From positions 62,001-126,000 of the forward strand of contig JAIUOK010000003.1 in assembly GCA_020161245.1 (NCBI GenBank): a stretch of DNA of 64,000 nucleotides, given 5' to 3'. Source of the DNA: Actinomycetota bacterium. Lineage in GTDB: Bacteria > Actinomycetota > Actinomycetes > S36-B12 > CAIYMF01. Below the pieces are notes generated by a model, which was given only the letters and a program-made list of their open reading frames with translations, did not search any database and had not been told where the DNA came from. Positions 20,118 to 54,577 of the stretch are shown here, piece by piece. Each line of letters starts with the position of its first letter. The stretch's first letter is position 1. The position numbers were made by a program, and so were the translations under genes.

Positions 20118-20180
20118 CGAGTAACTGCCCGAATCCTCAGTTCGGAGCCCCCGCAACCGAGGATTCGAGCAGTTACTCGC
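20118..20180. repeat. Family-2 palindrome, copy 1
   Basis: An imperfect palindrome of about 62 bp with ends GAGTAACTGC and GCAGTTACTC, and inner halves resembling CGAATCCTC and GAGGATTCG. It lies in the divergent region between the C-S lyase and the PadR gene. A second copy occurs at 54365-54430. Confidence 0.8.
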
Positions 20181-26486: not shown

Positions 26487-26500
26487 CACAACCCGCGCAC

Positions 26501-26534
26501 GAAGGCCGCCGCCCCGCGAGGGGCGGCGGCCTTC
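26501..26534 (+). terminator. Terminator of the rpsF-rplI operon
   Basis: A perfect 15-bp stem (GAAGGCCGCCGCCCC with its complement) capped by a GCGA tetraloop, 15 bases past the rplI stop. Confidence 0.92.
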
Positions 26535-26550
26535 GCCGTCCCTGAGGTCC

Positions 26551-26614
26551 GCGTGTAACACCAGCATGTGCGGCAAAACCGAGGCGCTTTGCTGCACATG
26601 CTGGTGTTACGTGC
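26551..26614. repeat. Family-3 palindrome, copy 1
   Basis: A 64-bp palindrome with arms GTGTAACACCAGCATGTGC and GCACATGCTGGTGTTAC, plus inner GGCAAAACC and GCTTTGC-type pairing. A closely similar palindrome lies at 27659-27723, so the two bracket a single gene. Confidence 0.85.
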
Positions 26615-26679
26615 GTGTCGTCCCCAGGTGCGGGCTTTCTCCCCCGAGGGAGGGCGTGTTGTCGACCCACCCTCCCGGC

Positions 26680-27666
26680 ATGACACAGCATGTGAGGTCC
26701 GCTCAGGTCGTTCAGGAACTGGCATCGGCGCTCGGCCCCGGGCCTTGGACCGTCGGACAGGTGCTGGCCGCCGGGTGGTCGCGCGGGCAGCTGCGCAGCG
26801 CCGTGACAGCCGGCCGGCTTGTGCGGCCGCACAAGGGTGCGGTGGATCTCCCGTCCGGCGCCGGGAGCACCGCCGCCACCGCGCGAGCCGCGCTGCTGAC
26901 GCTCTCCCGTCGCGCCGCGCTCAGCCACAGCACGGCGGGTACCGAGCAACGCTTGTGGCTGCCACGCCGGCCGGATCCTCATGAGCACGTGACGGCGCCG
27001 GGCGACGCCGACGATCTGCGGAACACCGTCCGAATCCACGGCTGCTCGTTGCCCGAGGAGTGGGTCACGGTGAGGAACGGCGTGAGGATGACGTCTCCTG
27101 CGAGGACGGCGGTCGACCTGGCGCGGGGCGCCAGTTTGCCTGACGCCCTCATCGTCCTCGACTCCTTTCTGCGGCTGTGCATCGGCGACGATCCGTCCGA
27201 CCCTGCACTGGCACGTGGAGACGAGCTCCGTCGCGAAGCCCGCCGCCGCGGCGTGCCGCTTCTGGAGGCGGCGTACCTCGGCGAGTTCGGATGGCCGGGC
27301 ACGGTCGTGGTCCGCGACGGCATTCCGCTCGCAGATGCAGGGTCGGAGTCGCCGCTCGAGAGCTGGTCGAGGGGCGTCATGATCAAGGAGGCGCTCCCAC
27401 GCCCCGTCATCGGCGCCCATGTCCAAGGCGCCTCTGGTGCTTGGTACTGGGTGGACTTCCTCTGGGCAGGTGCCGGCGTGATCGGCGAGGCTGACGGCAT
27501 CGGGAAGTACGGCACCACCGACGACGACGTGCGTCAGGCCATGACTGCAGAACGACGTCGTCAGGCCGACCTCGAGGCGGCCGGCTACGTCGTGATCCGC
27601 TGGACCTGGTCGGAGCCCACTGGCCAGTGGCTCAGGCGGCTCAGGCGAGCTCTGGGACGCGCGTAA
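26680..27666 (+). CDS. AbiEi-like winged-helix plus PD-(D/E)XK nuclease-like protein
   Basis: A 328-residue protein of a family frequent in actinobacteria, often annotated 'type IV toxin-antitoxin AbiEi antitoxin domain protein' or DUF559. Residues 1-60 look like a winged helix (WTVGQVLAAGWSRGQLRSAV...RLVRPHKGAV). The C-terminal half contains SPLESWSRGVM, a hydrophobic strand VDFLWAGAGVIGEADGIGKY and a closing strand YVVIRWTW. This E / D / GExDGxxKY pattern resembles VSR-type nucleases. No AbiEii toxin gene is adjacent, so a toxin-antitoxin role is not supported. The TAA stop lies within the second flanking palindrome. Upstream there is no clear ribosome binding site. Confidence 0.65.
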   Translation: MTQHVRSAQVVQELASALGPGPWTVGQVLAAGWSRGQLRSAVTAGRLVRPHKGAVDLPSGAGSTAATARAALLTLSRRAALSHSTAGTEQRLWLPRRPDPHEHVTAPGDADDLRNTVRIHGCSLPEEWVTVRNGVRMTSPARTAVDLARGASLPDALIVLDSFLRLCIGDDPSDPALARGDELRREARRRGVPLLEAAYLGEFGWPGTVVVRDGIPLADAGSESPLESWSRGVMIKEALPRPVIGAHVQGASGAWYWVDFLWAGAGVIGEADGIGKYGTTDDDVRQAMTAERRRQADLEAAGYVVIRWTWSEPTGQWLRRLRRALGRA

Positions 27667-27723
27667 CACCAGCAAGTGCAGCAAACACGGCCGGTTTTGC
27701 TGCACTTGCTGGTGTTACACGCG
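27659..27723. repeat. Family-3 palindrome, copy 2
   Basis: CGCGTAACACCAGCAAGTGC pairs with GCACTTGCTGGTGTTACACG around a GCAAA.../...TTTTGC inner stem. It contains the stop codon of the preceding gene and ends 4 bases before the stop of the convergent phosphatase gene, so it may also terminate transcription from both sides. Confidence 0.85.
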
Positions 27724-27726
27724 GCC

Positions 27727-28242
27727 CTAGACCCGGTCGCGGAGGAGCTGGCGGATGTGGGCGACGGTGCCGGGGGTGGCGCGCTCGACCATGGCCAGGA
27801 CGTCCTCGAAGCCGTCCATGCCGCCGTAGTACGGGTCGGGGACGTCGAGGTCGGACGACGGGTGCGGCAGATCGGCGAGGTCCGGGTCGAAGCGGCGCAT
27901 CATGACCACCTCGGCGTGCGGGGCGAGCCGGCGCAGGTCGTCGTAGTGCGTGGCGTCCATGGCCAGCAGCAGGTCGGGCTCGTCGTGCGTGGAGAACCAC
28001 CGCCGGGTGATCTGCTGCGCCCGGTGAGGGTCGCCGTCGTAGCCGTGGGCGCGCAGCACCTCGCGCGTACGCCGGTCGGCCGGATCCCCGACGTGCCACG
28101 CGCCGATGCCCGCGGAGTCGACGACGACGTCGTCGCCGAGACCGGCCTCCTCCACCGCGCGCCGCAGCACGTACTCCGCGATCGGCGAGCGGCAGATGTT
28201 GCCCGAGCACACCGTCGTGACCCGCAGCGGACGCCGGCTCAT
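27727..28242 (-). CDS. Low-molecular-weight protein-tyrosine phosphatase
   Basis: A 171-residue LMW-PTP with the P-loop VCSGNICRSP (nucleophile C12, R18) at the N-terminus, VDSAGIGAWHVGDPAD, and the general-acid loop DVPDPYYGG near residue 137. In actinobacteria such enzymes (PtpA-like) dephosphorylate tyrosine-phosphorylated proteins, and some are secreted. The ATG overlaps the stop of the upstream VOC gene (ATGA), so they are cotranscribed. All catalytic residues are present. Confidence 0.93.
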   Translation of the reverse strand: MSRRPLRVTTVCSGNICRSPIAEYVLRRAVEEAGLGDDVVVDSAGIGAWHVGDPADRRTREVLRAHGYDGDPHRAQQITRRWFSTHDEPDLLLAMDATHYDDLRRLAPHAEVVMMRRFDPDLADLPHPSSDLDVPDPYYGGMDGFEDVLAMVERATPGTVAHIRQLLRDRV

Positions 28243-53465: not shown

Positions 53466-54373
53466 TGGAGCTGCGGCTGCTGCGCGCGTACGTCGCGGTC
53501 GCCGAGGAGAAGCACTTCGGCCGGGCCGCGGCACGGCTGTTCATCACGCCGCCCTCGCTCTCGCAGCAGATCAAGACGCTCGAGAAGTCGCTCGGCGTCC
53601 GGCTCTTCGACCGCGACCCGCGCGGAGTGCGGCTCACGCGGGCGGGCGAGGCCCTGCTCGAGCAGGCCCGAGCCACCCTGGAGCAGGCCGACCGCCTCGA
53701 GGAGATGGCCGCGATGCAGGCTGGCAGCGTCACGGCCGAGCCGCTCGTCGTCGGGTTCCTGCTGTTCTCGCTGACGGCGGTCTCCCGCGGGCTCCTGGCG
53801 GAGTACGGCCGGGTGCATCCCGAGGTCGTGATCCACGTCCGGCAGTACGAGTGGGACGACCCGTCCGCGGGCCTGCTGTCCGGCGCGGTCGACGTCGCCC
53901 TGGTGCGCCCGCCGTTCCGCGGCGCCGAACGCCTGCGATCCGTCGAGCTCGACCGCGACCCGCTGCTCGCTCTGGTGCCCGCCGACCACCCCATCGCCCT
54001 CGACGGCGGCCCGGTACGCGCCGGCCGCCTCGTGCGCGAGCCGTTCCTCGAGGTCACGCTCGTCAACGACCCCGTGTTCGCCGCCGCGTGGTACCTGCAC
54101 GACCTGCGCGACGACCAGTGCCCGGCCCCGGTGATGAGCCGTGCGACGACCAGCGAGGAGTGGCTGGCCGAGGTCTCGCTCGGGCGCGGGGTCGACGTCG
54201 TCCCCGAGTCGGTCGCCCAGGACTACGTGCGGCCGGGCCTGGCCTTCGTCCCCATCGAGGACCTGCCGCCGTCGCGCCTGGTGCTGGCCTGGGACCCTGG
54301 CCGGATCTCCGAGGCCGGACGCCGGTTCGTCCGCTACGTCCAGCGCCGCAGCCCCGCCGACTCCCGCGAGTAA
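53465..54373 (+). CDS. LysR-family transcriptional regulator
   Basis: A 302-residue protein with the LysR winged helix at residues 1-60 (LRLLRAYVAVAEEKHFGRAA, LSQQIKTLEKSLGVRLFDRD) and a periplasmic-binding-like effector domain after residue 90. It is divergent from the FAD oxidoreductase and likely controls it. The last two codons and the TAA stop (54371-54373) lie inside a family-2 palindrome, so the C-terminus has probably been reset by insertion of the repeat. Initiation may be near-leaderless. Confidence 0.93.
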   Translation: MELRLLRAYVAVAEEKHFGRAAARLFITPPSLSQQIKTLEKSLGVRLFDRDPRGVRLTRAGEALLEQARATLEQADRLEEMAAMQAGSVTAEPLVVGFLLFSLTAVSRGLLAEYGRVHPEVVIHVRQYEWDDPSAGLLSGAVDVALVRPPFRGAERLRSVELDRDPLLALVPADHPIALDGGPVRAGRLVREPFLEVTLVNDPVFAAAWYLHDLRDDQCPAPVMSRATTSEEWLAEVSLGRGVDVVPESVAQDYVRPGLAFVPIEDLPPSRLVLAWDPGRISEAGRRFVRYVQRRSPADSRE

Positions 54374-54430
54374 CTGCCGGAGTCCTCGGTTTCCGGGCGT
54401 CGAAACCGAGGACAACGGCAGTTACTCGCG
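54365..54430. repeat. Family-2 palindrome, copy 2
   Basis: CGCGAGTAACTGCC pairs exactly with GGCAGTTACTCGCG. The inner arms TCCTCGGTTTC and GAAACCGAGGA pair perfectly around a short loop. It supplies the stop codon of the LysR gene. It is related to the copy at 20118-20180 by the outer GAGTAACTGC and the inner CCTC...GAGG. Confidence 0.85.
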
Positions 54431-54577
54431 GCCGGAGGGGGACCGGGAGTGGCACACCGGACGCCGGGAAGATGCCAGGATGCGCGGGAGAACGCGCAGC
54501 GCAGCGCGGGGGAGCCGGCGATCCCGGGAGCCCGCGGGGCGCTCCGCCCGACACGGCAACCGCCAGGAGGTCCACCC

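Follow-up and report, generated by a model that had tools for sequence, protein, structure and literature searches.

We identified a cassette consisting of a predicted nuclease gene between two matching palindromes in a 64,000-nucleotide stretch of actinobacterial DNA (referred to here as the window). The cassette is probably the gene-bearing copy of a two-part system, in which a resident nuclease gene and its cognate palindromes are accompanied by gene-less copies of the palindromes between other genes, and in which the enzyme spreads these copies. We observed the architecture, the pairing of each gene with its own palindromes, the dispersal of the palindromes within the same genome, the predicted fold, the conserved nuclease residues, and purifying selection on the protein. 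The architecture, specificity and dispersal of the system are well supported. We infer that the protein binds the palindrome and cuts DNA, and that cutting drives the spread.

A predicted nuclease gene bracketed by palindromes

The open reading frame (26680-27663, 328 aa) sits between two palindromes of 56-66 bp (Table 1). The upstream palindrome is separated from the start codon by 69 bp, and an arm of the downstream palindrome supplies the stop codon (TAA, 27664-27666). The arms pair at 22/23 and 23/23 positions. The initial annotation had described a 328-residue gene bracketed by two nearly identical palindromes. Both elements were located as claimed and the pair is real, but the wording was slightly too strong, as the two 56-nt cores are identical at 46/56 positions (47/56 in the inverted register). 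The arm motif, allowing up to 3 mismatches, occurs four times in the window, all within the bracketing pair, with 0 occurrences expected from 100 shuffles. The match between the upstream and downstream flanks of the gene scored 54.5, compared to 42 for the best of 600 control windows.

Table 1. Positions of the cassette, its boundary and related palindromes in the window
Feature	Position	Strand	Remarks
rplI terminator-like hairpin	26500..26535	.	upstream boundary of the cassette, outside it
Upstream cognate palindrome	26550..26615	.	core 26555-26610: 23-nt arm, 10-nt centre, 23-nt arm
Gene for 328-aa protein, AbiEi-like DNA-binding module and predicted VSR-like nuclease	26680..27666	+	
Downstream cognate palindrome	27657..27723	.	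core 27663-27718; extended form 27654-27727
Solo palindrome of the second family (cognate of the paralogue G000:C94:36696-37652)	54364..54431	.	
Diverged solo palindrome, clusters with the second family	20118..20179	.	

Upstream of the gene is rplI, and downstream is a gene resembling those for low-molecular-weight phosphatases. We named these neighbors, as well as ssb and dnaB, from recognizable sequence. The G+C content at third codon positions was 0.81 in the nuclease gene, compared to 0.97-0.98 in rplI, ssb and dnaB. Two relatives (G002 and G003) have rplI, a counterpart of the terminator-like hairpin, and then the phosphatase gene directly, with no palindrome at this empty site. The comparison agrees with the earlier view of a discrete cassette at this locus, flanked by rplI and the phosphatase gene. 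Another relative, the same-genus genome G010, has an orthologous nuclease gene (approximately 49% identity) at the rplI site with a different and weaker pair of palindromes (score 27.5, below the threshold of the flank test described next).

Matching flanks recur around homologous genes

We collected homologues from 60 relatives and from a named genome collection (best 80 of 209). The 114 matches were reduced to 81 distinct genes having both flanks by leaving out frame-broken genes (L088, L094, L144), duplicates, and loci where the flanks were short. We compared the two flanks of each gene and took as threshold the 99th percentile of scores from 600 control windows at these loci. Flanks matched for 58/81 homologues (median score 43.5 compared to 19.5 for controls), and 23/81 fell short. 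The matching flanks were mostly palindromic, and the sequence of the palindrome varied from gene to gene. The recurring pair around homologues that the initial annotation had suggested looking for was therefore found. The pattern also differs from the one that the initial annotation had named as a refutation, in which homologues would occupy a fixed location and lack flanking palindromes.

The family was found in 99 of 296 sampled actinobacterial genomes (E of 1e-15 or better). Hosts include Candidatus Nanopelagicales, Dietzia, Haloechinothrix, Geodermatophilaceae, Frankiales and Knoellia, among others; G010 carries one family gene that is identical to a gene from Candidatus Nanopelagicales. 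A phylum-wide flank set comprised 28 loci, two of which (the window gene and L109) were already in the first set, with L250 and L257 dropped due to short flanks. In this set, 12/28 loci were above the same threshold and 16/28 were below it (cross pairs, 2/756), a lower share than the 58/81 in the first set. Two distant members (L252 and L255) have matching repeats on both sides that are hardly palindromic.

We considered cargo of phages or plasmids as an origin of the gene. There were zero matches among 50,697 phage records, two weak matches among 72,556 plasmids, and none confirmed in IMG/VR, where one pattern was used. Cargo of this kind was ruled out on these grounds.

Palindromes are dispersed between genes in the same genome

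The genome containing the window (G000) has about ten more sites that match the window palindrome with both arms or with one good arm. For eleven sites of this family, the bracketing pair included, the position relative to genes could be determined. The sole paralogue of the nuclease gene in this genome is 46% identical (G000:C94:36696-37652) and is flanked by its own pair of 67-bp palindromes, which are unlike the window palindrome in sequence. The palindrome of this second family is the commoner of the two, with 55 half-sites (0 in a reversed-pattern control), 25 sites placed among genes, and at least 25 in the genome. A simple insertion sequence was set aside as a description of the cassette, since the two gene copies are diverged while the palindromes are multicopy.

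None of the 36 placed sites of the two families was inside a called gene. Gene calls came from a home-made caller that missed the nuclease gene itself. The solo copies are intergenic and often near the 3' ends of genes. Convergent gaps hold 11/32 of the non-bracketing sites compared to 18/136 in the background, an enrichment (Fisher p 0.008), and divergent gaps hold 2/32 compared to 33/136, a depletion (p 0.028). No shared target duplication was evident on inspection of the flanks at 13 sites.

Two solo copies of the window type, 1.1 kb apart on contig C79 (L036, 8067-8122 and 9187-9242), flank an unrelated gene that probably encodes a secreted protein; this arrangement could be due to chance or could be a cassette with a swapped gene. 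A third palindrome family in the same genome (CTGGAGGGGTGACGCGTCGG..., at L036:9666, L039:9342 and L040:5863) is without a recognized cognate gene. Similarly, G003 has two palindrome families (L310 and L317) without a recognized gene and a single member of the nuclease family.

The locations of the solo copies bear on the possibility that the palindromes are operators of the AbiEi type. In that case the upstream copy would serve in autorepression, and the others across the genome would be additional binding sites (a regulon or decoys) that arose with no copying driven by the enzyme. Both AbiEi and Rv2827c are described as autorepressors that act at 23-bp inverted repeats in their promoters (PMC7319586), and the window gene has a palindrome a short distance ahead of its start codon. 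Against operators stand the matching copy downstream, which lies over the stop codon, the scarcity of solo copies in divergent, promoter-bearing gaps and their placement near gene 3' ends, and the conservation of the nuclease core described below. On balance we consider operator function an unlikely explanation of the repeats.

Each genome matches its own palindrome

We compared 18 palindromes with 20 genomes in a joined query, in which the counts are rough and limited candidates were scored per genome. All 15 source genomes (15/15) carried matches, about 4-59 each on the two strands together, bracketing copies included. Among the matches listed, every genome matched its own palindrome only. 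Four genomes of the same genus in which the gene was not found at the threshold used (G004, G005, G006 and G008) had 0, 1, 0 and 0 matches. Another genome (G001) has a truncated family gene whose palindrome was outside the 18-palindrome query. The window palindrome, allowing up to 3 mismatches, was absent from 59 relatives.

Across 1596 pairs of 57 genes (a set that also left out L052, L060, L064, L143, L150 and genes scoring 35 or less), palindromes were recognizably alike only above approximately 60% protein identity. The likeness of the palindromes correlated weakly with protein similarity over residues 1-75 (rho 0.14) and 76-215 (rho 0.17), and not with similarity over residues 216-328 (rho 0.01). 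We set aside the p-values because the gene pairs are not independent. The weak correlation for the N-terminal and middle parts is in line with recognition of the palindrome by the AbiEi-like part of the protein. The motif GTNAC was present in the outer arm of 11/44 palindromes (mean of 2.1 in shuffles); we dropped it as a common core motif, as its recurrence possibly reflects shared ancestry.

Long palindromes were also sought de novo. Families of at least two members accounted for 2/19 long palindromes in 869 kb from three gene-less genomes and 20/33 in 680 kb from three gene-bearing samples, among which was the window. This comparison is weak because the G+C content (57-66% in the gene-less and 69-74% in the gene-bearing genomes, a confounding difference) and genome size differ, because the window was picked for its palindromes, and because one orphan family of G003, largely on one contig, contributes 5 of the 20.

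Genes stay in place while their palindromes change

Orthologous genes hold their position while both flanking palindromes change together. The gene was far more diverged than its flanks in five pairs of orthologues with changed palindromes: L046/L049 (flank 92%, gene 67-72%), L045/L079 (flanks 85% and 73%, gene 63-65%), L118/L138 (flank 87%, gene 70%, palindromes partly alike), L127/L128 (flank 86%, gene 64-74%) and L097/L107 (flank 95-96%, gene 67%, part of the N-terminal half being unalignable). In three other pairs (L110/L114, L101/L119 and L059/L102), the gene had no excess divergence over its flanks. Scores between palindromes of orthologues were left out, being partly inflated by flanking gene sequence (L032/L049). 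The N-terminal half of L097 appears to be replaced or hyper-diverged relative to L107, resembling a swap of specificity domains.

Two Dietzia species (approximately 95% identity) have 67 and 64 half-sites, with 1 and 0 in controls. These half-sites form direct arrays in steps of about 52 or 20 bp, with an inverted copy at the end. We queried twelve sites, of which ten had a usable counterpart and nine were filled in both species. Eight of these nine have unequal numbers of half-sites in the two species. Similar arrays were found around one of the family genes of G009. The arrays in Dietzia and G009 indicate that an arm by itself is a unit and that arrays change quickly, although the changes in array length could be due to ordinary slippage. 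There was no exact empty site for a solo copy among the Dietzia sites; at one of them (L260) approximately 1.1 kb of different DNA takes the place of the copy. No transposition with exact boundaries or a target duplication was caught at the sites compared.

The initial annotation had raised the possibility of a selfish element that is mobile by means of its palindromes, and had suggested comparing the region downstream of rplI in relatives. That comparison gave empty sites in G002 and G003 and an orthologue with other palindromes in G010. The mobility itself found no support: there is one gene per palindrome family in G000, and orthologues are at the same place in related species, a pattern closer to a resident gene accompanied by dispersed repeats than to an insertion sequence. 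Together, these patterns suggest that the enzyme and the matching repeats evolve together as a system.

The palindromes might alternatively be an older repeat of the host, into or beside which the cassette inserts so that a copy lies on each side, with the solo copies being unoccupied targets. In favor of this, solo copies outnumber the gene-bearing pairs, and there are orphan families, two in G003 and one in G000. We nevertheless regard it as improbable, as the empty rplI sites in G002 and G003 are without a palindrome, each gene has its own palindrome sequence that is not shared between genomes even within a genus, and orthologues at the same site carry different palindromes that are matched within each pair.

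The protein joins an AbiEi-like module to a VSR-like nuclease domain

Matches of the window protein to the Pfam families AbiEi_4, AbiEi_1 and DUF559 were each slightly below the cut-off. Among 53 aligned members of the family, AbiEi_4 was found in 40, DUF559 (PF04480) in 22, and REase_MTES_1575 (PF18741) in 12. The PADLOC AbiEi model PDLC02249 matched 53/53 aligned members; PADLOC AbiEi matches in the window protein span only residues 20-155.

An AlphaFold2 model of the window protein (pLDDT 93.8, pTM 0.89) was compared with known structures. The AbiEi antitoxin 6y8q aligned over 183 residues (Z 9.8, rmsd 5.5) with positions 6-219 of the window protein, the homing endonuclease I-Bth0305I over 93 residues (Z 12.5, rmsd 2.5) with positions 224-328, and VSR over 102 residues (Z 10.4, rmsd 2.4) with positions 173-328. 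With Foldseek, the two closest folds to the N-terminal part were Rv2827c (1.8e-4) and AbiEi (4.3e-4); E-values for the nuclease part were weak (0.1-0.5, probabilities 0.75-0.93). According to the model, then, an AbiEi-type module forms the N-terminal part (residues ~1-220) and a nuclease domain like those of VSR and I-Bth0305I the C-terminal part (residues 223-328), and the two together span the whole chain. This bears out the winged helix and VSR-like PD-(D/E)XK core recognized in the initial annotation.

The fold and the catalytic-type residues of the VSR-like PD-(D/E)XK superfamily are present in this predicted nuclease. E227, E270, D272 and K276 are invariant across 53 sequences, and D259 is kept in at least 90%. 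The ratio dN/dS was 0.15-0.28 across six orthologue pairs, indicating that the protein is maintained by purifying selection. No HUH/Y1 tyrosine transposase domain of the TnpA-REP kind was among the domains identified in the window protein.

That the protein is a stand-alone defense enzyme of the AbiEi or restriction type, with the palindromes as terminators or marks of self DNA, is very improbable: the PADLOC model matches all 53 aligned members and the nuclease part resembles the restriction enzymes AbaSI and PvuRts1I in structure comparison, but the PADLOC matches cover only part of the window protein, no toxin-like partner adjoins the gene in the window, so sparse a set of marks (for one family, about 11 sites across 4.3 Mb), different from one sister species to the next, would give poor protection, and with no phage match either, the defense role raised in the initial annotation gained no specific support.

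A proposed mechanism of palindrome spread

AbiEi is reported to bind two 23-bp inverted repeats spaced by 3 bp, and the Rv2827c promoter has 23-bp inverted repeats spaced by 13 bp (PMC7319586). The two arms of the window palindrome are also 23 bp long and are 10 bp apart. Given this geometry, the AbiEi-like N-terminal module probably binds each 23-bp arm as a half-site, with two protein molecules per palindrome. Two nuclease domains would thus be placed over or beside the center of the palindrome, and the VSR-like C-terminal domain would nick or cut DNA there or close by. Palindromes would be copied or homogenized when the break is repaired, which would let the repeats spread while remaining matched to their enzyme. 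The matched pairs, the concerted change of both palindromes, and the turnover of arrays would follow from cutting and repair off another copy. Several results weigh against this explanation: the homologues below the threshold of the flank test (23/81 and 16/28), the orphan palindrome families, the pair of solo copies around an unrelated gene, the de novo comparison confounded by G+C content, slippage as an ordinary cause of array change, and the failure to catch a transposition event with exact boundaries at the sites compared.

Comparison with known systems

In REPtrons, a resident and usually single-copy gene for a DNA-cutting enzyme adjoins its own palindromic repeats, many gene-less repeats lie between genes near gene 3' ends, and enzyme and repeat co-evolve (PMC8266576, PMC3733652). 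The window-type gene, flanked by cognate palindromes that are dispersed in the same genome, is like a REPtron (REP/RAYT) in these respects. It differs in the enzyme, which is a fusion of an AbiEi winged helix-turn-helix module and a VSR-like nuclease instead of a HUH tyrosine enzyme, in the repeats, which are double-arm palindromes of 56-70 bp, and in the host phylum, Actinomycetota. We noticed no common tetranucleotide tag of the REPtron type (GTAG or CGTC) within the arms of the palindromes compared. The logic of the system is REPtron-like and the enzyme is unrelated.

A broader reading, which we put forward tentatively and regard as possible more than expected, is that this is a second, independently evolved kind of REPtron-like system, present in about one third of sampled actinobacterial genomes. 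A sequence-specific VSR-type nuclease would spread and homogenize its own double-stranded palindromic sites, built of AbiEi half-sites, by break and repair, a form of homing aimed at short palindromes and not at the gene. The available text of a REP survey (PMC3733652) does not contain the term 'actinobacteri', and we found no description of such a nuclease-palindrome system in the open-access literature searched. In the sources available, the spread and retention of REP-type palindromes is an open question that has so far rested on one enzyme class (HUH). If our reading is correct, an unrelated nuclease with the same anatomy would mean that a REPtron-like arrangement evolved more than once, and the many independent pairs of enzyme and repeat would allow side-by-side tests of recognition, cutting and spread. 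A large group of proteins recognized only as AbiEi-like or DUF559 (99/296 genomes) would also gain a first biological context.

The cassette also resembles insertion sequences and MITEs, with a gene within inverted repeats and short gene-less copies. Unlike these, it has no recognized transposase domain and no near-identical multicopy gene. The fold of residues 223-328 and its acidic/lysine core are like those of VSR endonuclease and I-Bth0305I, whereas the nuclease here is joined to a DNA-binding module, is accompanied by cognate palindromes, and is encoded by a free-standing gene. Members of the family also match DUF559, a family of unknown function, and REase_MTES_1575; the link to palindromes sets them apart from the family descriptions consulted, in which it does not appear.

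Finally, residues ~1-220 have the fold of AbiEi antitoxins of the type IV toxin-antitoxin system AbiE, including Rv2827c, and likely share with them a site made of two 23-bp inverted repeats. The window protein differs from these antitoxins in its fusion to a nuclease and in having repeats on both sides of the gene and genome-wide. At the window locus, no AbiEii nucleotidyltransferase toxin is encoded beside the gene, whose neighbors are rplI and the phosphatase-like gene. Within the window protein itself, residues 62-218 resemble nucleotidyltransferases of the MenT/ANT(2'') type (MenT1, Z 9.3; TglT also matched).
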